Shown: positions 2-46,805 of the stretch, in pieces
Layout: every line of letters starts with the position of its first letter
How positions within the stretch are numbered: the first letter of the stretch is position 1
Source: Mycolicibacterium monacense
GTDB taxonomy: Bacteria; Actinomycetota; Actinomycetes; Mycobacteriales; Mycobacteriaceae
DNA: 64,000 bases
NCBI RefSeq assembly: GCF_010731575.1
Contig: NZ_AP022617.1
Span: 4,836,001 to 4,900,000 of the forward strand
Reading direction: 5' to 3'
Program-made: the position numbers and the translations under genes
The notes under the pieces: model-generated
Seen by the model: the letters and a program-made list of their open reading frames with translations, nothing else
The model's database searches: none
Told to the model about the DNA's origin: nothing

Positions 2-721
2 GTGTCGGCCAGCATCGGCTCGGTGTTCGCCGAACTCCGGCAGGACGATCGCGTGGTCGCGATCGACGCCGACACCGCGTTCGGCAAATTGGGCAGCCGG
101 GTGGATCCGAATGCGCAGGGAAGTTACTGGGAGCTCGCGTCCGATCAGCATCTCGAATCGTTCGCCGATGTGCGCAGCCGCGTCGGCAACAACGCCGCCG
201 GATTGTTCGTGCTCGCCGGAGAGGGGTCGCCGGCCCGTCGCAGAGTGCTCGATCCGGCGATCTACCGTGAGGCCGCCTCACGGCTGGACCGCTACTTCTC
301 CATCTCGATCGTGGACTGCAGTTCCACCATGGACTCGCCCGTCACCCAGGAGGTCCTGCGCGATCTCGACGCGTTGATCGTCGTCTCCTCGCCGTGGGTG
401 GACGGTGCGGCTGCCGCCGGGCAGACGCTCGACTGGCTGGCGGCCCGCGGCATGACCGGGCTGCTGCAACGAACTGTGGTGGTACTCAACGACTCTGACG
501 GCCACGCCGACAAACGGACCCGGTCGATCCTGGCGCAGCAGTTCGCCGGACACGGTCAGCGGGTCATCGAGATCCCGTTCGACGGGCACCTGCGGCCCGG
601 CGGCGTCATCAGCGGAACACGTGAGATGTCGCCCGCGGCGCGGCGGAAGTTCCTCGAACTGGCGGCGGCGCTCGCCGACCACTTCCCGTCGACCGACGAC
701 CGATCCCGGGAACGCGGCTGA
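2..721 (+). CDS. EspI-type MinD/ParA-like ATPase, C-terminal part
   Basis: The gene is cut by the left window edge, so the true start and the N-terminal Walker A region are outside. The visible 239 residues show the MinD/ParA continuation: a deviant Walker B-like strand near residues 18-24 (VVAIDADTA), a second strand ending in D104 (ISIVDCSS), and a C-terminal LELAAALADHF helix. Overall spacing resembles the C-terminal domain of EspI (Rv3876) from ESX-1, as I remember that protein. EspI-type proteins have a Pro-rich N-terminus and a MinD-like C-terminus and modulate ESX-1 secretion. The neighbours (an MPT63-like secreted protein and whiB6) fit an ESX-1 margin. It could equally be another ESX-associated MinD paralogue. 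Confidence 0.7.
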   Translation: MSASIGSVFAELRQDDRVVAIDADTAFGKLGSRVDPNAQGSYWELASDQHLESFADVRSRVGNNAAGLFVLAGEGSPARRRVLDPAIYREAASRLDRYFSISIVDCSSTMDSPVTQEVLRDLDALIVVSSPWVDGAAAAGQTLDWLAARGMTGLLQRTVVVLNDSDGHADKRTRSILAQQFAGHGQRVIEIPFDGHLRPGGVISGTREMSPAARRKFLELAAALADHFPSTDDRSRERG

Positions 722-838
722 CGCCTTCGACCTGCCCACCGGGGGTGCCCAGCAACGTCATCATTTGCTAGGTTCGCTAGCGGGACCGCCTCCAGGATCG
801 GGGGAGTCGGCCGTAGGACGACTCAGGAGTGAACCACG

Positions 839-1870
839 TTGAAGATCACCACTGTTTTCGCAGCAACCGCCGCGGCGGCAGCCGTCGCGGCTGCCGGTGC
901 GGTCATCGCCGCACCGATCGCCGGGGCGGAGTCGGGTGCGCCGGCGGGCCCGGCCGTCCACGAGATCGGCCAGCAGGCGGATCTGGTCAACGGATCGGTC
1001 GTACAGGGCTGGACCGTGACCGATCTGAAGGCCAGCACCGACACCATCCCCTACGCGGTGCGCGGGACGCTGTGGGAGGCGACCGCCACCGACGAGGCGA
1101 TCCAGGGCGCGGCGACGCCGATCGTGTCGAACTTCAACGCCAGGGCGAGGAACGGTGAGACCTACCGCGCGCTGTGGCAGGTCGCCACCGCGCAGGGCGT
1201 CAACCCTTCCACGCTCGGCCAGGGGCAGGAGACCACCGGCAAGCTGTACTTCGACGTCACCGGCGCCCAGCCGGACAGCGTCGTCTACAACGACGGTGGT
1301 CAGGACTTGCTGCTGTGGGTGCAGCCGCCTCCGTCGAGCACGTCGTCGTCGACCCCGCGGTCGAGCTCCTCGCCGTCGGGAAGCGCCACGTCGGCGACGC
1401 CGCAGGCCACGCCCCAGGGTTCGGAGGCGAGCCCGCCTGCCGCCGAAGCCGTCGAGCCGGGCACGCCGGGCGCCGCGCCCGCCAGCACCGAACTCGTCCC
1501 GGCTCCCGCCGGCAGCTCCGGCACGCCGCTCCCGGCGGGCAGCTCGGGCACCCCGCTGCCGGCCACCAGTTCGGGCACCCCGCTGCCGGCGGGTAGCTCG
1601 GGCACACCGTTGCCGGCCACCAGTTCGGGCACCCCGCTGCCGGCGGGTAGCTCAGGCACCCCACTGCCGGCCACCAGCGCGGGCACCCCGGCACTGGCCC
1701 CGGGCGCACCTGCACCCGCTCCGGCAGCTCCGGCCGTTCCGGCCCAGCCGGCGCCGCAGCCCGCGAGCAGCGGTCCCGCACCGGTGCCGGTGAGCACCGG
1801 CGATCAGGCGCCCGTGCCGCACGGCCAGGGTGTCCCGACCCCGACTCCCACCCCGGTGCCGGTGCCCTGA
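839..1870 (+). CDS. Secreted MPT63-like (DUF1942) protein with Pro/Ala repeat tail
   Basis: This is a 343-aa exported protein. Residues 1-30 form a signal peptide (Lys near the N-terminus, long Ala-rich core, likely AGA cleavage). Residues ~35-160 match the beta-sandwich DUF1942/MPT63 fold (GWTVTDLKAST, GTLWEATAT, TTGKLYFDV, DLLLWVQP). The remaining ~180 residues are low-complexity Ser/Thr/Pro/Ala, including near-perfect alternating units GSSGTPLPA and TSSGTPLPA. MPT63 of M. tuberculosis is only the folded domain (~159 aa), so the tail is an addition. The start is a TTG at 839 preceded by an AGGAG-type site; there is no better in-frame start. Molecular function is unknown, but an abundant culture-filtrate protein is the family expectation. 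Confidence 0.8.
   Translation: MKITTVFAATAAAAAVAAAGAVIAAPIAGAESGAPAGPAVHEIGQQADLVNGSVVQGWTVTDLKASTDTIPYAVRGTLWEATATDEAIQGAATPIVSNFNARARNGETYRALWQVATAQGVNPSTLGQGQETTGKLYFDVTGAQPDSVVYNDGGQDLLLWVQPPPSSTSSSTPRSSSSPSGSATSATPQATPQGSEASPPAAEAVEPGTPGAAPASTELVPAPAGSSGTPLPAGSSGTPLPATSSGTPLPAGSSGTPLPATSSGTPLPAGSSGTPLPATSAGTPALAPGAPAPAPAAPAVPAQPAPQPASSGPAPVPVSTGDQAPVPHGQGVPTPTPTPVPVP
1511..1690 (+). repeat. In-gene tandem repeat coding GSSGTPLPA/TSSGTPLPA
   Basis: About six copies of a 27-30 bp coding unit lie in tandem within the tail of the MPT63-like gene. Alternate copies (GSSG versus TSSG) form a ~60-bp higher-order repeat. Units are nearly identical in DNA, so copy number is likely to vary between strains by slippage or unequal recombination. 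They stay in frame. Confidence 0.8.
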
Positions 1871-1939
1871 CGCACTGTCTCCGCGATCACATCGGCGGGG
1901 CTGCTGCGGCGTGAGCCGCGGTCAGCCCCGCCTGTGCGT

Positions 1940-2890
1940 TCAGGAGTGTGAACTCCACCAGGTGTAGAGCTGATCCAGGCCGGGACCACGCGGTCCGGAC
2001 TTCACCACCGCGACGAGCGCCTCGTCGGTGTTGGTCCACGCCACCACCGGGCGGTCGGCCTGCAGTCCGCAGAACAGCACGCCGCTGACCTTCTGCGGCG
2101 TGGCGTTGCGCCGCCACGGTCCGGGCGACTGGATGTTGCCCGGGCAGGTGACGATCGACGAGGCCTCGACGACGTCGTTGAACGCGGCGTCCAGCGCGGT
2201 GTCGTCGGCCGTGATGGTGTAGGTCGCCGACGGCGGGCCGCCGGGGTCGAGGTTCGCGCCACAGGCTGCCTCGGCGAGCGCCCCCTCGGGCGGGGTCCGC
2301 ATCTCGCATGCGTCGGCGGCGTAGCCGCGCGGTAGCAGGCCGCGCAGGTCGGCCTCGGCTCGTGGGTCTGCGGTGCGGGTCGGTGAGGGCGTCGTCGGGG
2401 AGGCGGCCGTGCTGCCGCCGTCGCCGGACGGTACGAGCAGCCACACCACGACACCGAAGACCACCACGCCCAGCACCGCGGCGGCGATCAGCCACACCGG
2501 CTTCTTCTGCTGCGGCGGCGCAACCTGCGCCCTGGGCACCACCGGCGGCGGAGCGCCGTACCCGGCAGCGGACCAACCGCCGTCGGGTGGGGGCGGTTCG
2601 GATGCCGGGGCAGGCGGCGGGACGAATTCGCCCTGCGGGACGGGTGTCGCGGCTTCCGGATGGACGATGGGCTGGTCGACGGGCCGGGCTGTGGGTGGCT
2701 CGACGGGTTGCTCGACGGGTTCGGAGAGCTCGTCGGGACCGGAGTCAGCGACCGGGTCGGCGAGCGGCTCCCACAGCGGTTCGGCGACCGGATCGGCCGC
2801 GGGCGCACCGTCATCGCGGTCGGCATCCGAATCGGGGGCGGGTCCGGTGGCCCAGGGGTCCGAGGACGGGGGCGGAGGCGGCCATGTCAT
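1940..2890 (-). CDS. Single-pass membrane protein with Pro-rich cytoplasmic N-terminus
   Basis: This is a 316-aa protein not assigned to a named family. The first ~125 residues are Pro/Glu/Asp rich, starting MTWPPPPPSSDPW, a composition common in mycobacterial membrane-anchored proteins. One transmembrane helix lies at about residues 130-152 (VWLIAAAVLGVVVFGVVVWLLV). An extracytoplasmic Thr/Ser-rich linker follows, then a ~130-residue C-terminal domain with conserved-looking cysteines (AADACEMRTP, AACGAN, VTCPGN, LFCGLQ), suggesting two disulfides. I chose the ATG at 2890 over an upstream extension because coding-like composition begins there. Topology resembles mycobacterial proteins with a PknH-sensor-like or DUF-type ectodomain; function unknown. 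Confidence 0.7.
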   Translation of the reverse strand: MTWPPPPPSSDPWATGPAPDSDADRDDGAPAADPVAEPLWEPLADPVADSGPDELSEPVEQPVEPPTARPVDQPIVHPEAATPVPQGEFVPPPAPASEPPPPDGGWSAAGYGAPPPVVPRAQVAPPQQKKPVWLIAAAVLGVVVFGVVVWLLVPSGDGGSTAASPTTPSPTRTADPRAEADLRGLLPRGYAADACEMRTPPEGALAEAACGANLDPGGPPSATYTITADDTALDAAFNDVVEASSIVTCPGNIQSPGPWRRNATPQKVSGVLFCGLQADRPVVAWTNTDEALVAVVKSGPRGPGLDQLYTWWSSHS

Positions 2891-3011
2891 GTCCGGACCT
2901 CCACGAACCTCGTCGTCACTTCGCAACCCCCGCTCGGGCGAACTCGGAAACGTACCCATGGAAGCGTAGTAGGCCGCGCCGCTCGGCGGCGGTGCCGATG
3001 CGCCACGCCCG

Positions 3012-3743
3012 TCACTTGAGCACACCGATCAATGCCTCGATCGCCGCCGCCGACTCCGCCGAGATCGGTCGTTCGGCTTCCGCTCCCGCGATGTCGTCGT
3101 CGGGGACCCCGGCGGCCTGCGCCGTCTCGCTGATCGTCAGATTGGCGCGTCGGCGGACGGCGTACAACCGCTGTCCCAGGGTGGCGTTCGGGGCGGTGGC
3201 GGCGAGCATCGTCAGTTCGTCGATGCGCCCGCGGACCGCGCTGAGCGCCTTGATCAGAGCCGGGGTGACCTTCCCGATCCGGGCCGCGCGGGCGGCCACG
3301 GCCTCGAGTTGGCGCAGGTCGGACAGGATCGTGGTGACCCGTGGCGTGAACTCGCGATCGTCGAGGGCGGGCAGGACGTCCGCGGTCGCGCCGAGCGTGT
3401 GGACCGCGGCCTCGACGGCCTGGGCGATGAGCGGTGCCTCGGCGCCGTCGGCCGCTGCGGGAACCGCGGGAACCGTCGCCGTCGGTTCACCTCGACGCAG
3501 CTTGGCGATGGTCCCCGTGGGCCAGCGCAACACCTCTTCCAACTTTGCCCGGGTGCGCTCGCGGGGCCAACTGCGGCCCTTCTCGAAGGCGATCAGCGCG
3601 CCGGCGTTGATGATGCCGTCGGCAGCCAGGCTGCGCTGGCTGATGTCGAGCTCGCGGCGCCGCGCCGCCGCGGCCGCACCGGCGCGCGCCACCCCGGGGT
3701 CGAGGACCCCGGTCGCCTCGTCGATCGACTCCGCGTTGGTCAT
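3012..3743 (-). CDS. HTH protein, FHA-less paralogue of the gene at 7655-8686
   Basis: This is a 243-aa protein. Residues ~17-75 (ARAGAAAAARRRELDISQRSLAADGIINAGALIAFEKGRSWPR in segments) look like an XRE-type HTH with an adjacent WPTGTIAKLRRGE box. A second HTH-like segment lies near the C-terminus (LYAVRRRANLTISETAQAAGV). The same two blocks in the same order occur in the FHA-HTH protein encoded at 7655-8686, so the two genes are paralogues and this one lacks the FHA domain. It is likely a transcriptional regulator. Its position between the ESX-1 margin and divergent whiB6 suggests ESX-linked regulation, but that is inference. Confidence 0.7.
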   Translation of the reverse strand: MTNAESIDEATGVLDPGVARAGAAAAARRRELDISQRSLAADGIINAGALIAFEKGRSWPRERTRAKLEEVLRWPTGTIAKLRRGEPTATVPAVPAAADGAEAPLIAQAVEAAVHTLGATADVLPALDDREFTPRVTTILSDLRQLEAVAARAARIGKVTPALIKALSAVRGRIDELTMLAATAPNATLGQRLYAVRRRANLTISETAQAAGVPDDDIAGAEAERPISAESAAAIEALIGVLK

Positions 3744-4101
3744 GGACGGCGCTCATCCTCGCTGGCTCGACGACGGCTCGGTGCCGCAATACTAACCGCG
3801 GGAACCGCTACCGCTATGACTCGGGTTCGCGATCTGCCCACGAATCCGTATCGAAGCTACACCTTTCGCTGCGCTTCGACGGGCGAAATGCTTCGTTTGC
3901 CGTCCGCCGAACCGTTGCACCACCGCCACGTCCGCTCGGTATCACTGCACTTCAATGCCACTTAGTGGGATTCGGTTGCCTCGGTGGCCGAGCACTGCGC
4001 GAGTGTCAGCACCACTAACCGTTGCATCGCTACGGTTCTTGCTATAGATTTCACCGCAACGCGGGGCGCTGACCCGCACGGCTTGTCCTAAGGAGTAACC
4101 C
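3744..4101. other. Intergenic region between the HTH gene and whiB6
   Basis: There is no convincing gene in these ~360 bp. The right end holds a promoter candidate for whiB6 and its Shine-Dalgarno sequence (AAGGAG, seven bases before the ATG). Base composition is visibly lower in GC than the flanking genes, as expected for a long regulatory leader. Confidence 0.6.
4022..4050 (+). promoter_or_regulatory. Candidate sigma-A promoter of whiB6
   Basis: A -35-like TTGCAT (4022-4027) and a -10-like TAGATT (4045-4050) are separated by 17 bp and lie about 50 bp upstream of the whiB6 start. It was chosen by motif and spacing only. Confidence 0.45.
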
Positions 4102-4395
4102 ATGAGCAACGTGACATTTCTGGAGGTCCCGGTCGGCGCCTGCACTCGCGATCCGGAACGTTGGACGACGACTGCCGACGAAGAGGCGAAGGCCATCTGC
4201 CGGGGCTGCCCGCGCCGCTGGATGTGCGCGCGCGACGCGGTCGAACTCCCCCGCGCCGAGGGTTTGTGGGCCGGGATCGTCATCCCGGAGGCCGGCCGCG
4301 GCCGCACCTTCGCACTCAAACAACTTCGTTCGCTGGCCGAGCGCAACGGTTACCCCGTCCGGGCGATCCGCCGGGTGTTTCCCGAGTCCGCGTGA
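4102..4395 (+). CDS. whiB6: WhiB6-type iron-sulfur transcriptional regulator
   Basis: This is a 97-aa Wbl protein. The four cluster cysteines are C14, C33, C36 and C42 (AC, AICRGC, RWMC), followed by the GLWAG turn and a basic C-terminal tail (LKQLRSLAERNGYPVR). The stretches CxxDPxRWTTTxDxEAK, ARDAVE and QLRSLAERNGYPVR correspond closely to M. tuberculosis WhiB6 (Rv3862c) as I remember it, rather than WhiB1-5 or 7. WhiB6 binds a 4Fe-4S cluster that senses redox/NO and controls ESX-1 genes such as espA and esxAB. The ATG at 4102 has a good AAGGAG ribosome site. The ESX-1-type neighbours support the assignment. Confidence 0.88.
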   Translation: MSNVTFLEVPVGACTRDPERWTTTADEEAKAICRGCPRRWMCARDAVELPRAEGLWAGIVIPEAGRGRTFALKQLRSLAERNGYPVRAIRRVFPESA

Positions 4396-4933: not shown

Positions 4934-5428
4934 ATGACGAACTGGATCAACACAGTGAGCCGCGACCACGTCGAACGTGCTGTTCGCGGGCGTTTCACGC
5001 AGGCGAACCACGGTAAGCCCCAAGCGCTGCGCCGCATGGCGCGGGGCGACTGGATCATCTTCTACTCACCGCGCGTCACCTATCCCGACGGCGCTCAGCT
5101 GCAGGCGTTCACCGCGATCGGTCAGGTGGTCGACGACGAGCCCTATCAGGCGTCCACCGAGGATGAGGTGTGGCGGCGCAACGTCGACTTCCTCGACTGC
5201 GCGGAGACACCGATCCGCCCCCTCATCGACGCCCTCGACTTCATCGAGAACAAACAGCGCTGGGGATACAAATTCCGCTTCGGTGTGTTCCGCATCGACG
5301 ACCACGACTTCGAGACCATCCGGGCGGCGATGACGCGTTCGCCCGAACTGATCGGGGCATCGACGGTCAGCGACGCCGCCGGCGGGGTACCCGGACAGAC
5401 GGCAGCACCGCCGAACGACACCGACTGA
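4934..5428 (+). CDS. EVE-domain (PUA-like) protein
   Basis: This 164-aa protein matches the EVE / UPF0310 fold. It begins TNWINTVSRDHV, has the RMARGDWIIFYSPR strand, then AFTAIGQVVDDEPYQ and the conserved WRRNVDFLDCAETPIRPLIDAL block with a late WGYKFRFGVFRI segment. EVE domains are PUA-like pockets that recognise modified bases, and some act in defence or RNA modification; this stand-alone type is usually of unknown role. The ATG at 4934 lies 126 bp downstream of a divergent gene, so it has its own promoter. GNAT gene 5441 follows after 12 bp, probably in the same transcript. Confidence 0.8.
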   Translation: MTNWINTVSRDHVERAVRGRFTQANHGKPQALRRMARGDWIIFYSPRVTYPDGAQLQAFTAIGQVVDDEPYQASTEDEVWRRNVDFLDCAETPIRPLIDALDFIENKQRWGYKFRFGVFRIDDHDFETIRAAMTRSPELIGASTVSDAAGGVPGQTAAPPNDTD

Positions 5429-7654: not shown

Positions 7655-8686
7655 TCAGCCGGCGGCCAGTCGGCGTACCAGGGCTTCGAGTGCGGCGGCA
7701 TCGGCGTCGGCGACGAACTGGCCGTCCTCGGCGTCGGTGACGGCCTCGACGCTCACCCCGGCCGCATCGGCGGCCTCCTCGACGGTCAGCTCGGCGGAAC
7801 GCCGCGCGGCGTAGAGCCGTCGGCTCAACGGCGCACCCGGCGCCTGCGCCGCCCGCGTCATCACGCCGTTGTAGGTGCGGCGGATGTCTCTGAGCACGAC
7901 GGCGCCGTCCGGACGCCGGGTCGTCTTGCCCGCGTTGCGCACCATCTTCTCCAGACCGCGCAGATCGAACAGCACTGTCTCGACATACTCGTCGTACGCC
8001 GCATCGTGCGGCGCCGGCGCCCGGTCGATCCGGGCCTTCACATTGCCCAGTCCGATACTCGCGGCGTCGACCATCACCGCCATTTGCACTGTGTCGGAAA
8101 GGATTTCAGTACTCTCGTCCTCGGGTGCCGGGCTGCCGGCGCGCACCGCCGCGATGGTGCCCGGCTCCCACCCGAGGTGCACCTCGAGGCGCGCCCGCGC
8201 ATCGTCGGGCGGCCACACCCGGCCTGCCTCGAAGTCGGCCAGGGTCTGCGGGTCGATGACCCCTTCGGCCGACAGCCGGCGCCGGGTGAATCCGAGCTCT
8301 TCGCGACGGTCCTCGACGGCCGCACCGGCGCGGGCGACGCCCGCCTCGATCTCCTCCGGATCGGTCGCGTGGTCGACGGCCAGGGTGACCACGAGCCCTT
8401 CGGCGTGCCCCAACCGGACGGTCACCGTATCGCGGACGCCGACCGATTCCACGCGCTCGCCGTCGACGAACACACCGGTGGTGCCGCCGGCATCACCGAT
8501 CACCCAGTGGTCGCCATCGACGGCGATCTGGGCGTGGACGGGCGAGACCCGCGGATCGTCGGCACGGATCTGCGCCAGCAGGTCGCGGCCGATCAGGACC
8601 GGCGCGTCGCCCGGCGTGACGGTGCACAAGACGTCTCCGCACCGGATCCGCAGGGCCGGAACGGTTTCGCCAGCGCCCTGCACCAT
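7655..8686 (-). CDS. FHA domain-HTH regulator linked to the GTPase/GAP1 cluster
   Basis: This is a 343-aa protein. Residues ~10-100 form an FHA domain (VLIGRDLLAQIRADDPRVSPVHAQIAVD and GGTTGVFVDGERV), a phospho-Thr reader; the usual GR..S..H set is partly kept (GRD, S-P-V-H). Residues ~115-170 are an XRE-like HTH (AGAAVEDRREELGFTRRRLSAEGV, FEAGRVWPPDDAR, GWEPGTIAAVRAG) and the C-terminus repeats a second HTH-like element (LYAARRSAELTVEEAADAAGV). It is the last gene of a minus-strand run, 102 bp after the GTPase gene. The combination suggests that Ser/Thr phosphorylation is sensed and passed to DNA or to the GTPase system. Confidence 0.75.
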   Translation of the reverse strand: MVQGAGETVPALRIRCGDVLCTVTPGDAPVLIGRDLLAQIRADDPRVSPVHAQIAVDGDHWVIGDAGGTTGVFVDGERVESVGVRDTVTVRLGHAEGLVVTLAVDHATDPEEIEAGVARAGAAVEDRREELGFTRRRLSAEGVIDPQTLADFEAGRVWPPDDARARLEVHLGWEPGTIAAVRAGSPAPEDESTEILSDTVQMAVMVDAASIGLGNVKARIDRAPAPHDAAYDEYVETVLFDLRGLEKMVRNAGKTTRRPDGAVVLRDIRRTYNGVMTRAAQAPGAPLSRRLYAARRSAELTVEEAADAAGVSVEAVTDAEDGQFVADADAAALEALVRRLAAG

Positions 8687-8788
8687 GGACCTCCCCCGCG
8701 ATCAGTTCGCTCTGCGATGCTAGCCAATCGCGGGGCCGTTCAGGGCGGATGCGGTTCGTCCGGTGCCGGGCCGTAATCGACGGACCCG

Positions 8789-9946
8789 TCACAGAACCCC
8801 GTAGGGTGCGGTCACCCACCGCACCGGGTCGACGGTCCGGAACGGCGCGATCCCCCGCGAGTGCAACCGGTTCCCGCTCGGGGGCGCACCGAGCGCGGAG
8901 ACCGCGAAATATCGGTGGGGCAACCGCATCCCGGTGGACGGGTTCTCCACCGCCGCGACGATGGCCCCGCCGTGCAACCGGGTGAGCAGGCTGCGCACCT
9001 CTTCGTGCAACAGCTGGCCGTCGGACTCGTCGTACTGTGGGGTGTCTGACGGATCCCGCAGATACGCCGCCCCCGCGTTCGACATGATCAGGCTCCACTC
9101 GGAGCCCTCGACGTCGCGCAGCACCCGCAGCGCGTCGAACTTCGACACGATCACCGCGAGCTTCGGCTGCGCGGCCCCGACGGCGTGCAACACGTTGTTC
9201 AGCACCGCGCGCGGATCGCCACCGCTGAACGCCTGCGCCGGGAGCAGATCGTGGAGCTGGTCACGAATACCCTTGATACGCAACGGGTCGAACATGAAGA
9301 ACACCGCGTCGGCGTTGGCGAAGAACCGGAACGGCGGGGTGTACAGATCGCCGGACTCCAGATCCTCCCCCGCCACGTCACGCAACACCAGGTAGCGCCG
9401 CACGCCGTGCCACACGCCGATCCCGTAGATCAGCGGCTCGCGTTGATGGGACGCCTGGGTCTGCACGGTCGGGGTCGGCGGCACCAGACCGCGCTGGACG
9501 TAGAGCGGGGTCTCGTAGTTCATCGTGTAGGCCACCGCGGTCGCCCGGGTGGCCGGCTGCATGGACACCCCGAGGTGTTCGCACAGCAGCTCGAGTTGCT
9601 TGACCAGCACGCCGATGTAGAGGCTCTTACCCGTGGCGCGGGCGCCCGCCATCGCGATGCACACGGCGTGGCCGTTGCGCCAGTCGTCGGGGAGGATGAA
9701 GTGGCAGGCCAGGCAGATCTCCACGGCCGGACCCTGGAGCGCCTGGCTGGCTTCGGACAGCGGTGGCGGCGGTCCGGTGTAGCCGGGTGGGCGGGCCCAG
9801 GTGTAGAGCGCGCCCGAATCGGCCGGGGCCCCGAGATACGACGAGGCGAGGTCGTCCCGGTAGCGGGTCCCGCCGGCGTGCGGCGGAAGTGTCCACAGGT
9901 ACTGGTTCGGATCCAGCACCGAAAAGCACCGCGGGCATTTCGTCAC
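8789..9946 (-). CDS. Double-GTPase-like (DO-GTPase2-type) P-loop protein with zinc knuckle
   Basis: This is a 385-aa protein. A C4 zinc knuckle is split between residues 4-7 (CPRC) and 78-81 (CLAC). The GTPase core follows: Walker A GARATGKS at 101-108, G3 DVAG at 190-193, and an SKFD at 268-271 that serves as the G4 specificity motif. Layout and neighbours match what I know of the bacterial double-GTPase families found next to GAP1 proteins in predicted conflict systems. The start is GTG 9946, one base after the stop of the GAP1 gene, so it is in the same operon. Confidence 0.75.
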   Translation of the reverse strand: MTKCPRCFSVLDPNQYLWTLPPHAGGTRYRDDLASSYLGAPADSGALYTWARPPGYTGPPPPLSEASQALQGPAVEICLACHFILPDDWRNGHAVCIAMAGARATGKSLYIGVLVKQLELLCEHLGVSMQPATRATAVAYTMNYETPLYVQRGLVPPTPTVQTQASHQREPLIYGIGVWHGVRRYLVLRDVAGEDLESGDLYTPPFRFFANADAVFFMFDPLRIKGIRDQLHDLLPAQAFSGGDPRAVLNNVLHAVGAAQPKLAVIVSKFDALRVLRDVEGSEWSLIMSNAGAAYLRDPSDTPQYDESDGQLLHEEVRSLLTRLHGGAIVAAVENPSTGMRLPHRYFAVSALGAPPSGNRLHSRGIAPFRTVDPVRWVTAPYGVL

Positions 9947-9947
9947 G

Positions 9948-12437
9948 TCAACGGCTCCAGCGGGTTCGGGCGATCGGCGCGGTCGGCGCCTCCGGGCGGC
10001 GGGCCAGCAGTTTCAGCACGGTCTTGCGGTGCCGGCGGACGGCACCGTCGTTGGGTTCGCCGGTCAGCCGGGCCATCGTGGCGGCGACCACGCCGATATC
10101 GATCGACTCGGGCCTGCGGGTGGCCATGACATGCCGCGCGCCCTGCCAGATCAGCTCCTCGATCCCGTCGGTGACCGCCGCCGGATCGTCGCCGTTGTGC
10201 GCGAAGCGCAGCGCCGCCACCGCCAGCACCGACATGGCGTTGAGGACATAGCCGTCGAGCAGTGCGGCCAGCTGCCCGAAGGCGTCCGCGGCCACCCGCG
10301 GTTCGGCCGTCAGGAGCGCGCTCGACGGTGGATAGGGCTGCCCGGCCGCGAGGGCGATGGCGGCGAACGTCACCAGGCGCACCGCGAAATCGCGGTGGAC
10401 GGCGTCGGTGCCGGTCGACTCGAGCGCGCGTTCCCACAGCGGCGCATAGGCGGACTGGTGGCTAGCCGCGTAACCCTGTTCGATCCAGCCGCGCGGATCG
10501 AAGATCCGCACCGCCGCACACGCCACCGCGACGTCGTCGTTGTTGGCGCGCAGCACCGTCTGGGCCAGCCGCTCCAGCGCCGCCGACGGGGGCGCCCCCG
10601 CCAGCGTGCGGACCGCCGCCGCACCCGGGAGGGCCGAATCCCCCACGGCGGCAAGCAGTTCGTCGGGGTGCCACACCGAACTGCCTGCCACCTCCTCGAA
10701 CCGCTCCGAGCCGCTGACCCGCAGCCACCACAGGCTCGCCCAGCGGTCCGCCTGATCGACAGCACCGCGCTGCACCGTCCGCGCACCCCGCAGCGCCGCC
10801 GCGGTCCACACCGGATCCCCCGGCCGGGCTTCCCGCAGGTCGTGCGGCGCCGGGGCGCGCACACCCTCGGCCAACCAGTCGAAGACATCGCCGTTGACCG
10901 CGGTCGCGTCGCCGTCCTGCAGCAGCGTGGCCGCCAACGCCAGTCGGGTCGGTGCGCCGAGGCTCTCGCGCAACGCTTCCAGCAGGGCCGGTGCGGCCTC
11001 GGAATCCATCAGCTTCGGGGCCACCTCGGTGCGGAGGGCGGCACTCACCCGGTCGTCGTCGATCCCCGAGCGCAGCAGGAGGTCCGCCAAACGCGCCACC
11101 CGGTGCGCACCGCCGGCCTGCGCGGCCGCCAGGGCGGGTCCGAGGGACTCGCGTAGTTCCCTTGGCGGCGGGCGTCTTTCGGAATCGCGTTCGCGGGCCG
11201 GGATCCGCCCCGGTCGGCTCAGCCAATCCTCGTCGGCCACCGCGCGGCACAGATACGTCACGTCGGCCAGATCGGCCGCCGGTCCGTCGACGGTGTCCTG
11301 CACCGCTTTCCATGCGTCGGCGGTGCTGGTGCCCAATGCGTTGCGCATCACCTCCGCGACGGTGCGGGCGGTCACAGAATCGCTCGCGGCACGCGGCGAA
11401 TGCGCGGCGATCACCGCGTACGCCTCGGTGAGCGCGTCGGCGAATTCGTCCCGATGGGCCACCGACATCGCCAGCGGCCAGGCCGGATGCAGGCCGGCGT
11501 CGGCGACCTGCGCGGCGTAATGGTCGATGTCGTCGAGGACCGACCGTGCCCCTTCGGCGTCGAGCAGCACCACCTGCGCCATCGCCGACCACGGCGTGAC
11601 GGTGATGGCCCGTCCGTCGGCGGTGCGGTGCGGTTCGTGGTCGAGTTCCCCGAGCGACAGGGTCGCGTGTTCGCTGATCGCGACGACGTCGTCGGGGACG
11701 TGCTCGAGATCATCGACGGGCACCGCCGTCAGATGCTGGCCGCTCTGTCGGGCCAGGGTCAGTTGGTCGGCGCGGTCGAATGTCGAGAAATGCAGGCGGG
11801 CAGCGGTTCCCGCCGACATCAGGAAGCTGACCAGCCCGATCCACTGGGCGGCCGAATCCGCCGATTCCACGCCCAATACGACCGGCGGGCCGCCGTCCAG
11901 CGCGGCCGCGACGGCGTCGAGCAGTCCGAACAGGGTCGCCAGCCGCCAGGCGTCCGGATCGAGCGCGAACCGCACGACGCTGTCCTTGGTCACCGCCGTG
12001 CCGGGGGCGGGTGGCGTACCGGGCAGCGCGGCCGCGCCCACGGCGAGCGGACCGTACGGACACAGCCAGCCGTCGGACCGCCACCACTGGATGGGCCGGT
12101 CGGCGCCGTCACCCGCGGCCCGGTCGAGAAGTGCGTGGGCGAACACGTTTCCGGGGCGGCCGGTGCTGTCCGACCCGGACGGCACGGTGTGCCAGTACCC
12201 GGCGCGCCTGCGGTCGAGGCGGCCGTAGGCGAGCCGGCGCGGGCCGCGGTCGAGTTGTTCGGGGGTCGGGTAGGCGGGTAACGGTTGCGCGGGCCGGAAG
12301 ACGGTACGCACCCCGGAGGTCAGGGCGTGCACCTCGTCGGGAGACAGGTCCGCCGAGGTCTCCTTGACCTGCCAGCCGCCCATGTGCGCGGCGGTGTCGA
12401 ACGAGGTGTAGGTCAATTGCCCGTAGCGCCCGGTCAT
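9948..12437 (-). CDS. GAP1-like GTPase-associated protein
   Basis: This is an 829-aa protein. The first ~120 residues (YGQLTYTSFD, GGWQVKETSADLSPDEV, RRLAYGRLDRRRAGYWHTVPS, RPGNVFAHALLD) fit the GAP1 N-terminal domain type 2 as I know it. A middle domain (~180-330) holds FRFALDPDAW-type helices and a strand-rich LHFSTFDRADQL segment. The C-terminal ~450 residues are helical, HEAT-like. No enzymatic motif is visible. GAP1 proteins are the obligate neighbours of double-GTPases and are thought to act as effector scaffold or regulator. The start ATG overlaps the upstream stop (ATGA), showing tight coupling. Confidence 0.7.
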   Translation of the reverse strand: MTGRYGQLTYTSFDTAAHMGGWQVKETSADLSPDEVHALTSGVRTVFRPAQPLPAYPTPEQLDRGPRRLAYGRLDRRRAGYWHTVPSGSDSTGRPGNVFAHALLDRAAGDGADRPIQWWRSDGWLCPYGPLAVGAAALPGTPPAPGTAVTKDSVVRFALDPDAWRLATLFGLLDAVAAALDGGPPVVLGVESADSAAQWIGLVSFLMSAGTAARLHFSTFDRADQLTLARQSGQHLTAVPVDDLEHVPDDVVAISEHATLSLGELDHEPHRTADGRAITVTPWSAMAQVVLLDAEGARSVLDDIDHYAAQVADAGLHPAWPLAMSVAHRDEFADALTEAYAVIAAHSPRAASDSVTARTVAEVMRNALGTSTADAWKAVQDTVDGPAADLADVTYLCRAVADEDWLSRPGRIPARERDSERRPPPRELRESLGPALAAAQAGGAHRVARLADLLLRSGIDDDRVSAALRTEVAPKLMDSEAAPALLEALRESLGAPTRLALAATLLQDGDATAVNGDVFDWLAEGVRAPAPHDLREARPGDPVWTAAALRGARTVQRGAVDQADRWASLWWLRVSGSERFEEVAGSSVWHPDELLAAVGDSALPGAAAVRTLAGAPPSAALERLAQTVLRANNDDVAVACAAVRIFDPRGWIEQGYAASHQSAYAPLWERALESTGTDAVHRDFAVRLVTFAAIALAAGQPYPPSSALLTAEPRVAADAFGQLAALLDGYVLNAMSVLAVAALRFAHNGDDPAAVTDGIEELIWQGARHVMATRRPESIDIGVVAATMARLTGEPNDGAVRRHRKTVLKLLARRPEAPTAPIARTRWSR

Positions 12438-14434
12438 GTCACCGCCGGAGTCAGCCGCAGATGCTCCACCGGCGGGTCGAGCAGGGCGATCAGCCGCAGA
12501 CTGGCCGGCGAGGGCGTGCTGACGAACAGGCGGATCCAGCCCTGCCGGTTGCGGACGTTCGCGGCCCACAGTTCGCTTCCGCCGGTCGTGGTCAGCTGCG
12601 ACCACCGCAGTTCCTTGGCGGGCGGGGCGGCGAGCTGGCCCTGTTCGTTGAGCGGTGCCACGTCGACCAGCTCACCGTCGTGCACGCTCAACGGGATTCG
12701 GGTCGGATTGTTGACCAACACGAACGCCGGCGAGCCGGGCAGGTCGTACTCGGAGCGGACCGCGATCGTCGCGGTGAACGGCCGCCCGTCGGCGTCGCGG
12801 CCGACCCGCACGGCGTATTGCAACCGCAGCAGGCCCTGGTAGTCGATGCTGGCGATCGCGCCCATGACGCGGCGCCCGCCGGTGAAGGCGATCGGCGCGA
12901 GGTGCAGCGAGCAGCCGTGCACCGGGAGTGGACCCGAAAGCTGCAGACCGCCGTACTTCTCGTACTCCTCGAGGGTGATCTCGTAGGTGTGCCCGCCGAG
13001 CCCGTTGCGCGGATCGTGGCCCGGCGGCGCGAGATACACGACGACGGAGGCGGCGCCGTCGGGCCAGTCGAAGGTCAGCACCTGTTTGTTGCAGTACTCC
13101 GCGAGTTCGATGTCGCGGATCACCCCGGTCCGCACCGTCGAGAACGTCTTGCCCAGCATGGCGCGACCGCCGATCAGCGTGACCGGGGTGAAGTAGGCGC
13201 GGCTCCACTGGTCCGGCCAGGCGACGCCGGGCATCGCGGTGCGGACACGGCCGTCCTCGTCACGCTCTTCGGTGACCGGTTGCGCCAGACGCAGTTCCGG
13301 CGGAAGCCCGACCTGGTCGAGCGCATCCTCGGGCAACTCGTCGGCCTCGGCGCCGGCACTCGGACCGGTCGGCGTGCGGTAGACGACCACGCGTCCCCCC
13401 GGTGGGGTGGTCCAGGCGAGGTCGAGGACGGTGGCGTCCGCGGTGCTTCCGGTGATCGTCAGATCCGTGACCGGCGCCAGCACCGCCGACACGTCCACAC
13501 CGGACTCGGCGGCCTCCGACAGCCGCAACACGCCGCCGACGGGTGCCGCGCAGCGCACGCGGTAGACGTAGCGGTATCCGCGTTCGACGTCGATGTCGAC
13601 GAACCCGGCGAGGTTGTCCTGTCCGGCGAGGATCCGGTACTGGGGTCCGTCGCGGTGCGCCTCGCCTGCGGGCATCCGGTACACGTAGACCGCGCTGATC
13701 CCGGGCGGGACGGTGTAGCGGCCGACCACCCGGCCGGAGTCCTCCTGCAACGCGAGGTCGGTGATCCGGCCGATCAGCACCCCGGCGGCGTGCAGCACCG
13801 GTTGCGCCGCCAGCGCTTCGGCCCGGGTGGCGCCGAGGTTCGCCCACACCTGGAAGTGGCGCACCGCGGCGACCGGTGGGCGGTCGTCGGTCGCGGACGT
13901 CGTGGTGGTCACCGTGAGCGGGTCACCGGTGTCCGGCGAGCGGGGCGCGGCGTCTTCTCCGCTGACCACCCGGTAGACGACGGTCTGGCCCGCGGCGTCG
14001 ATCGGCGGCCAGCGCAGTTCGAGCGCTCCGGTGTCGCGGCGGCGGTGCAGCGTCACGCTGTGTGCGGCGGCGCCGGGCCCGTCACCTTCGTACGGCGCGA
14101 AATGGTCTCCCTGCGTCGCTGATTCGTACAGCGGTTCCCCAACCGGGTCGTCCCCACGGTGGCGCCCGGCCGGGGTGATCTCCTCCTCTGATCCGCCGGG
14201 TCGGGCGGGCAGCTCCGCCAGGACACGCGCCATGTCGTCGGCGTGTTCGGCGACGGACCCGGGCAGCATGGCCCGGATCTGCTCGACGTCGGTGCGCCCG
14301 GAGCGCAGCACGAGGCGCAGATGCGCCTCTTTGAAGCTGCGGGCCGACACCGCGCCGGAGTCGATGAGCCGTTGGCGCCATTCCAGCAGCGCGCCGAGGC
14401 GCGGATCGTCGTCCGCCTGCGGGTGTTCGGTCAC
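12434..14434 (-). CDS. Fn3-like multi-domain protein of the GTPase/GAP1 cluster
   Basis: This is a 666-aa protein. The N-terminal ~80 residues are helical (RLGALLEWRQRLIDSGAVSARSFKEAHLRL and VEQIRAMLPGSVAEHADDMARVLAEL). The rest is a series of beta-sandwich, fibronectin III-like segments (LELRWPPIDAAGQTVVYRVV; VLDLAWTTPPGGRVVVYRT; QVLTFDWPDGAASVVVYLAP), each with the W...VYR signature. There is no signal peptide or TM helix, so it is probably cytoplasmic, unusual for repeated Fn3-like domains. It is the first gene of the operon (start GTG 14434) and couples to GAP1 by ATGA. It may be the recognition or scaffold subunit; function unknown. Confidence 0.65.
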   Translation of the reverse strand: MTEHPQADDDPRLGALLEWRQRLIDSGAVSARSFKEAHLRLVLRSGRTDVEQIRAMLPGSVAEHADDMARVLAELPARPGGSEEEITPAGRHRGDDPVGEPLYESATQGDHFAPYEGDGPGAAAHSVTLHRRRDTGALELRWPPIDAAGQTVVYRVVSGEDAAPRSPDTGDPLTVTTTTSATDDRPPVAAVRHFQVWANLGATRAEALAAQPVLHAAGVLIGRITDLALQEDSGRVVGRYTVPPGISAVYVYRMPAGEAHRDGPQYRILAGQDNLAGFVDIDVERGYRYVYRVRCAAPVGGVLRLSEAAESGVDVSAVLAPVTDLTITGSTADATVLDLAWTTPPGGRVVVYRTPTGPSAGAEADELPEDALDQVGLPPELRLAQPVTEERDEDGRVRTAMPGVAWPDQWSRAYFTPVTLIGGRAMLGKTFSTVRTGVIRDIELAEYCNKQVLTFDWPDGAASVVVYLAPPGHDPRNGLGGHTYEITLEEYEKYGGLQLSGPLPVHGCSLHLAPIAFTGGRRVMGAIASIDYQGLLRLQYAVRVGRDADGRPFTATIAVRSEYDLPGSPAFVLVNNPTRIPLSVHDGELVDVAPLNEQGQLAAPPAKELRWSQLTTTGGSELWAANVRNRQGWIRLFVSTPSPASLRLIALLDPPVEHLRLTPAVT

Positions 14435-37721: not shown

Positions 37722-40700
37722 CTACATGGGGGCAAGGCCCCCTCGACCCTGGGAATGTGTTGATGCCGAGCCGGGCGACTGCCTTGAAGCCGATGCCGCC
37801 GCTTCCGCGTAACCCGGCGCCAGCGCCTCCATCTGCTCGATCACCAACTTGATCGCCGCCGGCTGCTTGTCTGGCGGGTACTTGTACTTCACCAGCAGTC
37901 GCTTGATCGACGAGCGCAGCTTGGCCCGAACGTCATCGCGCACGGTCCAGTCGGTCTTGGTGTCGCGCTGCATGACGCCAACGAGCTCGCGGGCGATCTG
38001 CGCCAGCACGTCCTCACCTTGCAGTTCGACGGCGGAGTCGTTCTGCGCGACGGCGTCGTAGAACGCCAGTTCGTCATGCGATAACGGCGGACTGAAGTGC
38101 GCCCCCCGATTCCCTTCGGCGGCAACCTCTTTGGCCATCTCAATCAACTCGGCGATCACCTCGGCCGAGGTGAGCTGCTGGTTGGTGTACCGCCGCATCA
38201 GGTTGGTGAGACGTTCGGAGAACGCCCTCTGCCGTACCACGTTGCTCTTGGTGGCACGTACCGCTTCTTCGGTGATCACGGCGCGCAGCGCCTCGATCGC
38301 CAGGTGCGGGTTGCCCGCGGCGGCGGCCTTGGTCTCGAACTCCGGAGTGAGATCGGACAGCGAGGGCTTCGGCAGCCCCGCCGCGTCGTAGATGTCGACG
38401 ATGCCGTCGGAGGCCGTGGAGTCATACACCAGTGATTCGAGCATCCGCCGGATCGCCTCCGGTACCGGCTTTCCGGAGGCCTGCCGGTCATTGGCGTCGA
38501 ACTTGGCCATCCACACCCGGACCTCTTCGTAAAATTTGGCGGTCGGGCGCAGTGCATCGAGCGTCTGGCTGCCGGCGCACAGCGACCAGGCCCGCGAGAG
38601 CTGATTGGCCAAGGTGCGGAACCGGTCTCCGAGCGTCGCCTCCCCCTCGGGGACCTGGTTTCCGGCGGTTGCCGGTGAGCGCAGGTAATTTGTCAGCCCC
38701 ACGGCGGCCTTCATCCAGCCATGCGGCTGAGCCACTTTGGATCGCCAGTCGTATTCGCTGCACAGCGCGTCCAGCTGGGCGATCAGCGTCTCGGTCAGCG
38801 CGACAGCCTCGTCGATGTTCTTGCCGACGGGCTTCTCTTTCCGATCGGTCTGGGTGTACTCGGCCAGCGCCTTGTTCAGGTTCTCGACCAGTGGCGCGTA
38901 GGCGACCAGCAGACCGTTGGGCTTCTCCCGGAAGGTGCGGTTCACGCGGGCCAGCGTCTGCATGAGCAGCGCGCCCTTCAGGGGGCGGTCGAGGTAGAGG
39001 GTGTGCAACGGTGGCGCGTCGAACCCGGTCAGCAGCATGTCCTTGACGAGCACGATCTGCAGTTCGTCATCGGGATCGCGCAGTCGCTGTTGGATGGTCT
39101 TGTTCTGTGCGTCGCGGCGAACGTGCTTGCCCACCAGGCCCTGGTCCTTGGCGCTTCCCGAGTAGACGACCTTGATGACACCCTTGTCGACGGCGTCGTC
39201 GTGCCATTCGGGTTTGAGTTTGATGATCTCTTCGTAGAGTTGGGCACAGATCTCACGGGTGGCGCCGACGATGAATGCCTTGCCCGGGCAGGAGATGAAT
39301 TTCCGCATCTCGGCCGAGCGGGCTTCCCAGTGCTCCACGATGTCGCGTGCCAGTGCCGCGAGCCGATCGGGTGCGCCGTACACGGCGTTGATGACGGCCA
39401 CCGACTTCTCGATCTGATCACGCTCGACGTCGTCGAGTCCGGAGGTCACCTCATCGGCCGCCTTATCGAGATCGTCCTCGGTGACGCCCGCGGCGAGAGA
39501 GACCTTGATCAGCCGGGGCTCGAAATACACCGGCACCGTGGCTTTGTCGTTGACGGCGCGAGTCAGGTCGTAGACGTCGATGTCGGGGCCGAACACCTCG
39601 CGGGTGTCACGGTCGGCGTCGGCGATCGGGGTGCCGGTGAAGGCGATGTATACCGCGTTGGGCAACGCGTCGCGGATGTGCCGGGCGTAGCCGTCGAGGT
39701 CGTCGTAGTGGCTGCGGTGCGCTTCGTCGACGACGACGATGAGGTTGCGGCGGTCAGTCAGCAGCGGATGGTCGGCGCCGGCTTCGCGTTCGGCCTTGGA
39801 TAGGCCGAACTTCTGCAGCGTGGTGAAGTAGATCCCTCCCGTGGAACGGTTCGACAGTTCATCGCGCAGCTGGGCCCGACTGGTGACCTTGATCGGCGAT
39901 TCGCCCAGAAGCCTTGAGCGGTCGAAGGTTGCATAGAGTTGGCCATCGAGGTCTTTGCGGTCGGTGACGACGATGACGGTGGGGTTCTTGAGCTTGGGTT
40001 GTTGGGCCACCAGGTGGGTGTAGAGCTCCATCTCCATGGATTTGCCGGAACCCTGCGTGTGCCAGACAACACCGGCCTTGCCGTTGCTTTCGGCGGCCAC
40101 CACCGTCGAGCCGACCGCCTTGGTGACGGCAAAGTACTGGTGCGGCTTGGCGATCCGTTTGATCAGACCGTCTGCGCCGGCGTCGAATGCGGTGAAGTTT
40201 CGGACCAGCTGAAGGAATCGTTCGGGGTTGAACAGGCCGTCGATCAAGTACTCGAGTTCGGTACCCAGGTGCACGTCGTCAACCGGTTCGCCGAAGGTCA
40301 CCGGCTTGCCGTCGTCGTCGACGTTCCATGGGGCGTAGTGCTCCAGCGGGGTGAACGGGGTGCCGTAGCGCGCGGTGATGCCGTCACTGATGACGTTGAG
40401 CACCGCGAACCGGAAGGCCATCGGAAACTCGCGCAGGTAGGTGGCGAATTGCGCGTGCGCGCCGGGCAGGTCGGCGTATTTGGAGCCGGCTTGCTTGAGT
40501 TCGAAGAACGCGATCGGCATCCCGTTGAGATAGAGCACGATGTCGAAACGGCGGTCGTACTCGGCGGAGCGGACGGTGACCTGCTGCACGGCCAGGAGTT
40601 CGTTCTCCTCAGGCCGGTGGCTGATCAGCCGAATCGTCGGGTTCTGTTCGATGCCATCGGAATCCACATAGCTGATGCCCCGGTAGCCGCTGACCAGGTA

Positions 40701-40970
40701 TTGGTGCAGCCGGTAGTTCTCGGCGATGGCATCCTGGGATGACGGCTGCAGGATCGCCGCACGGGCTTGTTCGAGGTATTCGCCGGGCACCTCGGGGTTG
40801 AGTTCGCGCATCTTGGTCAGCAGTCGCTCGGGCAGCACCAGCTCGTCCCAGCTGGTGCGACCGTTCTCGATGCCCGGTGCGATGACGGAACCGTTGAGCG
40901 GCAACCACTCTTGCTGCGCAAGCGTCTCCAGTGCGACGGATTCCCATTCGGCTTCACTGAATTCGCTCAT
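37722..40970 (-). CDS. hsdR: Type I restriction enzyme R subunit, 3' end altered by IS
   Basis: This 1082-aa protein has an N-terminal PD-(D/E)xK nuclease (FDIVLYLNGMPIAFFELKQ, ~residues 135-155), SF2 translocase motifs GVVWHTQGSGKS (~300) and VVDEAHRSHY (~415), AFTGTPI, and LLTGFDAPPLHTLYLDRPLKG, and a C-terminal helical assembly domain. It cuts DNA after ATP-driven translocation as part of R2M2S. It is last in the operon, overlapping the nucleotidase gene by ATGA. The last 5-6 codons and the stop lie inside the IS3 element, so the native C-terminus is lost or replaced. Confidence 0.95.
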   Translation of the reverse strand: MSEFSEAEWESVALETLAQQEWLPLNGSVIAPGIENGRTSWDELVLPERLLTKMRELNPEVPGEYLEQARAAILQPSSQDAIAENYRLHQYLVSGYRGISYVDSDGIEQNPTIRLISHRPEENELLAVQQVTVRSAEYDRRFDIVLYLNGMPIAFFELKQAGSKYADLPGAHAQFATYLREFPMAFRFAVLNVISDGITARYGTPFTPLEHYAPWNVDDDGKPVTFGEPVDDVHLGTELEYLIDGLFNPERFLQLVRNFTAFDAGADGLIKRIAKPHQYFAVTKAVGSTVVAAESNGKAGVVWHTQGSGKSMEMELYTHLVAQQPKLKNPTVIVVTDRKDLDGQLYATFDRSRLLGESPIKVTSRAQLRDELSNRSTGGIYFTTLQKFGLSKAEREAGADHPLLTDRRNLIVVVDEAHRSHYDDLDGYARHIRDALPNAVYIAFTGTPIADADRDTREVFGPDIDVYDLTRAVNDKATVPVYFEPRLIKVSLAAGVTEDDLDKAADEVTSGLDDVERDQIEKSVAVINAVYGAPDRLAALARDIVEHWEARSAEMRKFISCPGKAFIVGATREICAQLYEEIIKLKPEWHDDAVDKGVIKVVYSGSAKDQGLVGKHVRRDAQNKTIQQRLRDPDDELQIVLVKDMLLTGFDAPPLHTLYLDRPLKGALLMQTLARVNRTFREKPNGLLVAYAPLVENLNKALAEYTQTDRKEKPVGKNIDEAVALTETLIAQLDALCSEYDWRSKVAQPHGWMKAAVGLTNYLRSPATAGNQVPEGEATLGDRFRTLANQLSRAWSLCAGSQTLDALRPTAKFYEEVRVWMAKFDANDRQASGKPVPEAIRRMLESLVYDSTASDGIVDIYDAAGLPKPSLSDLTPEFETKAAAAGNPHLAIEALRAVITEEAVRATKSNVVRQRAFSERLTNLMRRYTNQQLTSAEVIAELIEMAKEVAAEGNRGAHFSPPLSHDELAFYDAVAQNDSAVELQGEDVLAQIARELVGVMQRDTKTDWTVRDDVRAKLRSSIKRLLVKYKYPPDKQPAAIKLVIEQMEALAPGYAEAAASASRQSPGSASTHSQGRGGLAPM

Positions 40971-42070
40971 TGGTGTCCCTCTGCTGGGTTGGGATCGGCG
41001 GCGAGTTCGGCCCCGAGTTCGGCGATGGTCGGCAGGCTGGATTCGAGGTCGTCGGGCAGTTCTTCGGTGATGGCCACCATCTGGGGGTCGACTAGCGGAG
41101 GAAACGCGATGTCGGCTGTCGGCACCACGTCGTCAGCCGAGTCCTGCACATTGGCAACGCCATAGGGAATGTGGACCCCAGCGATGTGTTCAAGCGCGCT
41201 ATCGAGATGTTGCTGCTGATCGTCGAAGAAAATATGCGGTCCGAGAACCTCGAGCACCCTCGACTTCTCGATACCTCCGAGAAAGAACGCGTCGTTGACG
41301 TTCACTCCCCAATCGCGCATCGAGTGAACTGCACGTTCGTGGGCCGGAGCATTTCGTGCCGTGATCAACGAGATGCGCAACCGAGGTACATACGACGGGT
41401 CAGCCGCCCGCCGCTCGTCCTCAAGAGTTTGGATGCGGTTCAGATCAGCGAGAAGCGGCTTCAGTAGTCCAGGTGCGAGCGGGACGTGGCTCTTGACGTC
41501 CTCATGCTCGAGGTAGTCCTCGATTAAATCCGCTTCCCGGTAGACCCGCTCGGACTCGTCGCTTGCCAAAACCCCATCGAAGTCAAACGCCACGCGAAGC
41601 GACGGATCAGCATCGTCGTACGTCGCCGTCGATGGCAGCACATGGCCTGCAGGGAGATCCCGCTTGATTGCCGCATCGACATCGTCGCGATCGGCGGTTA
41701 GGAACAGAGACATTTCGAATGCCTCGATGTATCCGTAGGGCGCCTGGCCCTGTGTGAATACCGATCGAGTAATCGGCAGCCCGTGCTTCCTGACCGAGCG
41801 CATAACCCGCAGTCCGGTCATCGGATCGTTGTGCGACAGGATGATCACCTCGACCAACGGATTGCCCGGCCGTAGGTCGTTGAGGTTCAAGAGTCGCCGA
41901 ATGAAGGGGAAAGCGACTCCCGGTACGAGTGTCTGGTCGATCCGCTCGTCCTGATACGTCCGGTACTTGTCCTCTCCATGCTCGCGAAAGTAGGCGTCCG
42001 ATTCCGTGAGATCGAACAGCGCGCTCGACGCGACGCCGACCACCAACTTGTCACTCAGTTCGTACGGCAT
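40967..42070 (-). CDS. Cytosolic-type (cN-I-like) 5'-nucleotidase inside the RM operon
   Basis: This 367-aa protein fits the cN-I/PF06189 family: an N-terminal KLVVGVASSALFDLTESDAYFREHGEDKYRTYQ block, LVEVIILSHNDPMTGLRVMRSV, then the HAD-type catalytic motif VAFDFDGVLASDESE (~residues 164-178, DxD nucleophile and acid), SLITARNAP, and HIFFDDQQQHLDSA. It hydrolyses (deoxy)nucleoside monophosphates in this family. It touches hsdS (adjacent codons) and overlaps hsdR by 4 bp, so it is an integral operon member. A role in nucleotide depletion or recycling of restriction products is inferred. Confidence 0.85.
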   Translation of the reverse strand: MPYELSDKLVVGVASSALFDLTESDAYFREHGEDKYRTYQDERIDQTLVPGVAFPFIRRLLNLNDLRPGNPLVEVIILSHNDPMTGLRVMRSVRKHGLPITRSVFTQGQAPYGYIEAFEMSLFLTADRDDVDAAIKRDLPAGHVLPSTATYDDADPSLRVAFDFDGVLASDESERVYREADLIEDYLEHEDVKSHVPLAPGLLKPLLADLNRIQTLEDERRAADPSYVPRLRISLITARNAPAHERAVHSMRDWGVNVNDAFFLGGIEKSRVLEVLGPHIFFDDQQQHLDSALEHIAGVHIPYGVANVQDSADDVVPTADIAFPPLVDPQMVAITEELPDDLESSLPTIAELGAELAADPNPAEGHQ

Positions 42071-44870: not shown

Positions 44871-44880
44871 CGGTGGCCTT

Positions 44881-46743: not shown

Positions 46744-46805
46744 GGCTGGCCTCCCTTCATCCGGTCCCACGGTAGGCAATGGGTCCACGTCGAGCAATTG
46801 CGTTT

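Follow-up and report, generated by a model that had tools for sequence, protein, structure and literature searches.

A probable SaeA-SaeB-SaeC module related to GAP1-N2 GTPase systems at the ESX-1 margin of Mycolicibacterium monacense

Close to a type VII secretion locus of Mycolicibacterium monacense, three tightly packed genes on the minus strand encode a fibronectin type III (FN3) protein, a GAP1-like protein and a GTPase, and a gene for a forkhead-associated (FHA) and helix-turn-helix (HTH) protein follows after 102 bp. Do these genes form a single signalling system, and what would such a system serve? They lie in a stretch of 64,000 nucleotides (contig NZ_AP022617.1, positions 4,836,001 to 4,900,000), here called the window. 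A first-pass annotation had described them as a four-gene system for phosphorylation-gated GTPase signalling. The four genes are real and their domains were mostly called correctly; the unit, however, comprises three genes (FN3, GAP1 and GTPase), and the FHA-HTH gene is a separate local neighbour. Of the readings considered, we favour with moderate confidence that the core at ESX-1 is a GTPase scaffold captured by this secretion system.

The FN3, GAP1-N2 and DO-GTPase2-like genes constitute a conserved core module, and the observed family identities and folds agree with the pairing of a GAP1 protein and a DO-GTPase that had been proposed. The product of the GAP1 gene (9948 to 12437, minus strand) scores 66.2 bits against GAP1-N2 and 44.9 bits against GAP1-M (cut-offs of 24), and its C-terminal ~580 residues received no domain assignment. 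The adjacent gene (8789 to 9946, minus strand) encodes a protein with the fold of a TRAFAC GTPase and with G1, G3 and G4-like motifs and a Glu after DxxG. It reaches 18.1 bits against the DO-GTPase2 profile (cut-off of 27), which 39 of its 45 family members match at E <= 0.01. In the 45-row alignment, D190, A192, G193 and E194 are invariant, and we read them as Walker B. The expected zinc knuckle is present at the N-terminus, where C78 and C81 are invariant and C4 and C7 are conserved in >= 90% of the rows, with the DZR profile matched in 5 of the 45 members. The FN3 open reading frame (12434 to 14434, minus strand) encodes a protein that consists, in its AlphaFold2 (AF2) model, of a helical N-terminal domain (approximately residues 7–76), a low-confidence linker and tandem FN3 repeats. 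The predicted structure matches FN3 tandems (Foldseek/VIA), as had been called, and a match at the sequence level was found in only 4 of 49 members. The helical domain could be an HRDC domain, as in some FNIII proteins of Kaur 2020. No solved structure of a relative of the FN3 or GAP1 protein was found by sequence at E <= 0.01. A 24.1-bit match considered as a second GAP1 module in the same genome was rejected, as it lies antisense to a dnaG-like reading frame. In the GAP1-N2 module of Corynebacterium glutamicum, which is not known to have ESX-1, both families were matched as controls.

The first-pass annotation knew of no described function for such genes, and this does not hold, because close relatives already carry names as ESX-1 scaffolding and assembly proteins. 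An FN3 relative with 60% identity (P0073) is named "putative ESX-1 scaffolding and assembly protein SaeA", and a GAP1 relative with 80% identity (P0258), which itself scores above both GAP1 cut-offs, is named SaeB. Relatives of the GTPase, including P0127 (81%) and P0200 (68%), bear a partial name, at its longest "ESX-1 scaffolding and assembly protein S". In Table 1 of PMC8525676, SaeC of M. smegmatis has the entry "Putative ESX-1 scaffolding and assembly protein". In one locus (L033), the genes are arranged as FN3, GAP1 and GTPase, followed by one reversed gene, PNPOx and further genes up to whiB6 and espM. This order fits, to about one gene, the numbers MSMEG_0044-0046, which we take to be those of the M. 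smegmatis Sae genes, given that espM is MSMEG_0052. Experimental work on the Sae proteins probably exists; the names are likely to stem from Wirth et al. 2012 (Mol Microbiol 83:654), in which non-esx-1 proteins of M. smegmatis are said to be needed for polar assembly of ESX-1. The core thus shares with SaeABC of M. smegmatis the protein families, by their source names, and in L033 also the place near whiB6 and espM, whereas in the window one more gene, of the EspM family, follows the GTPase.

The same three families also belong to a class predicted computationally. In Kaur 2020 (PMC7159879), GAP1-N2 systems are predicted to combine an FNIII-repeat protein with a GAP1-N2 protein and a DO-GTPase that bears zinc ribbons. 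The FN3 gene had been regarded as an addition to the GTPase-GAP1 pair, but in that description FNIII-repeat proteins are a stated component. The window copy shares with these systems the GAP1-N2/M protein, the FNIII-repeat protein and a DO-GTPase2-like protein with N-terminal zinc-binding cysteines. It differs from them in having a single GTPase and in its place at an ESX-1 margin, and no vWA, tubulin, HSP70 or kinase partner is recognised beside it. The terms ESX, type VII and SaeA gave no match in the main text of PMC7159879. Both labels are already present on some database entries (e.g. P0257), and no paper joining Sae proteins with GAP1-N2 or DO-GTPase was found among the matches listed, in a search that covered few subscription papers. 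The pieces are therefore already known, and the link between the Sae proteins and the GAP1-N2 class is new. We regard the core as probably a SaeA-SaeB-SaeC module, derived from DO-GTPase systems of the GAP1-N2 type and associated with ESX-1, in which SaeC would be the switch, SaeB its partner and SaeA the scaffold.

How conserved is the unit, and how far does it extend? We compared 81 loci, the window and the best 80 of 144 relatives; this set overlaps our sample of the genus and is hence not independent of the genus counts. The order FN3-GAP1-GTPase was observed in 76 of the 80 named loci, the contigs of the other four ending before FN3, and in all 29 full-length loci of the genus sample and 16 of 19 of the family sample. 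Three loci of the family sample (L080, L081 and L089), with 24–27% identity in the GTPase, are distant relatives without a GAP1 match. A relative of the GTPase is present in 30 of 148 genomes of the genus sample, of which two hold just C-terminal fragments. It is present in 43 of 301 genomes at the family level and in 6 of 396 at the phylum level, the last including three Streptomyces-like matches. Among the hosts of the named loci are Rhodococcus, Williamsia, Gordonia, Arthrobacter and Propionibacteriaceae, and two copies are on Rhodococcus plasmids. Outside mycobacteria, one or two large genes that match no family over the cut-off precede FN3 in L147, L172 and L160 (positions 57-3832; 344 and 913 residues in L160), and in Gordonia a TerD gene lies downstream (PF02342 in L160); these are candidates for further parts of an ancestral system. 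Among the genes upstream of FN3 in Gordonia and Microlunatus, neither a tubulin-like nor another partner was found, with no match over the cut-off. A molybdopterin-oxidoreductase-like gene, identified by reading the sequence, is located between the GTPase and PNPOx or beside PNPOx in L025-L027 and L090.

This patchy distribution, together with class membership and the occurrence in Rhodococcus, Gordonia, Arthrobacter, Propionibacteriaceae and on plasmids, speaks for an anti-invader conflict system as proposed by Kaur 2020. In such a system, the FN3 protein would sense an invader, the GTPase and GAP1 would set a threshold and an effector would act, and the adjacency to ESX-1 would be incidental. 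No effector-like gene, however, is recognised beside the window copy. The three core proteins match no PADLOC model at E <= 0.1 (0 families), and the FHA-HTH protein has weak PADLOC matches over its HTH part (best, capH at 1.3e-4). The Sae names on close relatives also argue against the proposal, the main rival to an ESX-1 scaffold, which we consider unlikely; two further observations that bear on it, one on either side, are given below.

Most of the compared loci contain one more gene. A vWA-like gene is located between GAP1 and the GTPase in 55 of the 81 loci and is absent from 26, including the window, in whose genome the vWA query found no match in a search run without a positive control. 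The vWA assignment itself is weak, resting on the conservation of the DxSxS positions (D in 47, S in 51 and S in 54 of 55) and on a match to PF10138 (vWA-TerF-like) in 8 of 31 members. In the family sample, the gene was detected in 13 of 16 loci with a full core, the exceptions being L078 and L079, which are diverged, and L087, a margin locus. Its wide presence suggests that it is ancestral. Many mycobacterial loci with the gene have sensor-like genes after the GTPase, and the one that was scanned has a PknH_C domain.

The absence of this gene coincides with the ESX-1 margin, defined as a position with PNPOx, whiB6 or espM, or more than one of these, in reach. Among the vWA-less loci, 23 of 26 are at the margin compared with 3 of the 55 vWA-bearing loci, of which the other 52 are elsewhere or cut; copies from two mycobacterial clades occupy this place, which argues against an incidental adjacency. 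Mycobacterial copies account for 24 of the 26, and no vWA gene was detected in L157 and L158, both from Rhodococcus. In a tree of the 71 loci with all three genes long enough, the 24 mycobacterial copies form two clades with support of 1.0 each, and vWA-bearing clades lie between them. A constraint to a single clade was rejected (p-AU of 7.3e-5) in a test that covered 38 of the 71 loci, including 21 of these 24 copies, and used a quick tree without a mixture model. If the vWA-like gene is ancestral, this suggests at least two losses in mycobacteria. Mycobacterium sp. DL99 has a vWA-bearing and a vWA-less copy (L104 and L122) ~14 kb apart on the same contig near whiB6 and espM, which suggests a tandem duplication preceding the loss.

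A missing part may also be a sign of decay. The vWA-less copies would then be remnants hitchhiking at the ESX-1 margin, and C-terminal fragments of the GTPase in two genomes (L052 in G131 and L053 in G094), themselves signs of module decay, would fit this explanation. The window copy, however, has three open frames, and all three genes were matched in 15 of 15 vWA-less genus loci. The ratios of nonsynonymous to synonymous substitution rates (dN/dS) in three pairs indicate purifying selection, with 0.03-0.07 for the GTPase, 0.12-0.15 for FN3 and 0.19-0.21 for GAP1. The low values for the GTPase, a sign of strong constraint, speak for a functioning module, and we consider decay the least credible explanation.

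The reading of the core as an ESX-1 scaffold is consistent with the position of the window copy and with the distribution of ESX-1. A type VII core with EccA, EccB, split EccCa/EccCb, EccD and two WXG100 proteins lies just upstream of the window, and we take it to be ESX-1 because of the split EccC and the neighbouring espM and whiB6. The first-pass annotation was right about the position at an ESX-1 margin. The whiB6-like gene (4102 to 4395, plus strand; PF02467 Whib, 32 bits) marks the margin and is divergent from espM alongside it (3012 to 3743, minus strand), an orthologue without an FHA domain that scores 351 bits against NF052403 over model positions 126-365 (cut-off of 550). Like this gene, espM of M. 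smegmatis (MSMEG_0052) is reported to be without FHA (PMC7002343). Between whiB6 and the cluster, a gene at 4934-5428 encodes an EVE-domain protein (PF01878, 69 bits), as is also the case in L094, L095, L097 and L134. Across the genus, EccCb1 (presence threshold, E <= 1e-150) was detected in 86 of 148 genomes: in all 16 that have a vWA-less copy, in 6 of 12 with solely vWA-bearing copies and in 64 of 120 without a full-length copy. Fisher p values for the vWA-less group are 0.002 against the vWA-bearing group and 0.0002 against genomes with no full-length copy, both ignoring relatedness and linkage.

Several points weigh against this reading. The EccCb1 contrast is uncorrected for relatedness and is partly a product of physical linkage. 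EccCb1 is also present in 64 of the 120 genomes that lack a full-length module, so the module is not a general requirement of ESX-1. Conversely, the module occurs in genomes lacking EccCb1, as seen where all copies bear the vWA-like gene, which would favour a conflict system. One vWA-less locus (L102) has no margin gene in reach, and L099-L101 keep the vWA gene at the ESX-1 margin, so that its loss is not required for a place there. The source names of the relatives may have been transferred by similarity, and the GTPase is only probably SaeC, as judged by the partial name, gene order and exclusion.

The FHA-HTH gene (7655 to 8686, minus strand) is a neighbour of the core and not one of its parts. 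Its product, with the FHA and two-HTH layout that had been called, scores 245.1 bits against NF052403, below the required 550, and by this comparison it is a paralogue within the EspM family but outside the EspM equivalog. EspM is an ESX-1-responsive repressor of whiB6, according to PMC7002343 and PMC11005418; the FHA-HTH protein shares its layout but falls below the equivalog cut-off, and its gene does not adjoin whiB6. Two EspM-family genes thus lie near one ESX-1 locus, one without FHA and one with an FHA of altered binding residues, and a split of EspM functions between them is possible. The FHA-HTH gene immediately follows the GTPase in 4 of the 81 loci; in a fifth the distance is 1.4 kb, and in three more it is ~7 kb. 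All five nearer loci belong to the clade of the window (A1), although the support for these five as a group is only 0.46. The first-pass annotation expected the four families to co-occur and took scattering of the genes in related genomes as evidence to the contrary; such scattering is what the FHA-HTH gene displays. The order expected in distant actinobacteria is found for FN3, GAP1 and GTPase but not for FHA-HTH, with no FHA match in the 29 named non-mycobacterial loci (L145-L173, of which some are short).

The gap between the GTPase and FHA-HTH genes (8687 to 8788, minus strand) contains the block TTGG(C/T)TAGCATCG, which is kept upstream of FHA-HTH in the window, L094, L095 and L097. In L134, an unrelated gene intervenes behind the GTPase, and a looser form of the block is still upstream of FHA-HTH. 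Judged from this conservation, the block is probably the promoter of the FHA-HTH gene. A sigma-70 consensus scan of the locus found no promoter, and the one terminator-like site is inside the GTPase gene, fewer than in shuffled sequences. In a weak test for an EspM-type operator, no 10-mer was common to the whiB6-espM gap and the cluster gaps. Phosphothreonine-binding FHA domains have the motifs GR, SxxH with an Arg, and STNG. The FHA domain in the window keeps GR and S/H, but SRxH is replaced by SPVH, with Pro for the Arg, and STNG by GTTG; both motifs are intact in the four nearest relatives (L094, L095, L097 and L134). Reading of phosphothreonine by this copy, as had been proposed, is therefore doubtful. 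In L025, whose genome is shared with L134, an HNH-type gene is found between the GTPase and FHA-HTH.

These results bear on the proposal of a four-gene, phosphorylation-gated GTPase system with FHA-HTH as an integral regulator. The shared strand, the 102-bp gap and the presence of the gene in five related loci agree with it. The proposal is nevertheless very improbable, since in 76 of the 81 loci no FHA-HTH gene follows the GTPase within 1.4 kb, and since the gene has a conserved promoter-like block of its own, altered phosphopeptide residues in the window and a dN/dS of ~0.35, compared with 0.03-0.21 for the core genes. Moreover, it is shortened to ~287 codons in L134, and in G028 its nearest relative and the module are on different contigs. 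Phosphorylation gating thus remains unsupported.

Gene identities and order, folds, the phylogeny, the absence of the vWA-like gene and the co-occurrence with ESX-1 are direct results; for SaeABC, we infer nucleotide switching, complex formation, an ESX-1 client and a polar role. SaeC would act as the nucleotide switch with SaeB as its obligate partner, and SaeA, a probable scaffold, would recruit and assemble ESX-1 components through its cytoplasmic FN3 repeats, probably at one cell pole, with the opening of the scaffold timed by the GTP state. The vWA-like part would be absent in two ESX-1-margin lineages presumably since ESX-1 components took over its contact. The FHA-HTH gene would encode a separately transcribed EspM-family regulator, which in a single small group separates the module from the adjoining gene.

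Elsewhere in the window, reading frames at 37722-46797 resemble, as read from the sequence, a type I restriction-modification locus.

For the class as a whole, we suggest only tentatively that GAP1-N2/DO-GTPase systems may be, instead of or besides conflict systems, GTP-gated scaffolds that place and assemble envelope machines, with SaeABC as the ESX-1 branch and the vWA part shed twice as ESX-1 took its contact. The link would connect a widespread family, predicted only from sequence, with a secretion system for which genetics, microscopy and a safe laboratory host are available, so that the role of DO-GTPases becomes testable. For the ESX-1 scaffold, it would supply a biochemical prediction not found in the literature searched. 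In this prediction, a GTPase switch acts with a GAP1 partner and an FN3 scaffold, and the module from which they derive normally includes a vWA-like protein.

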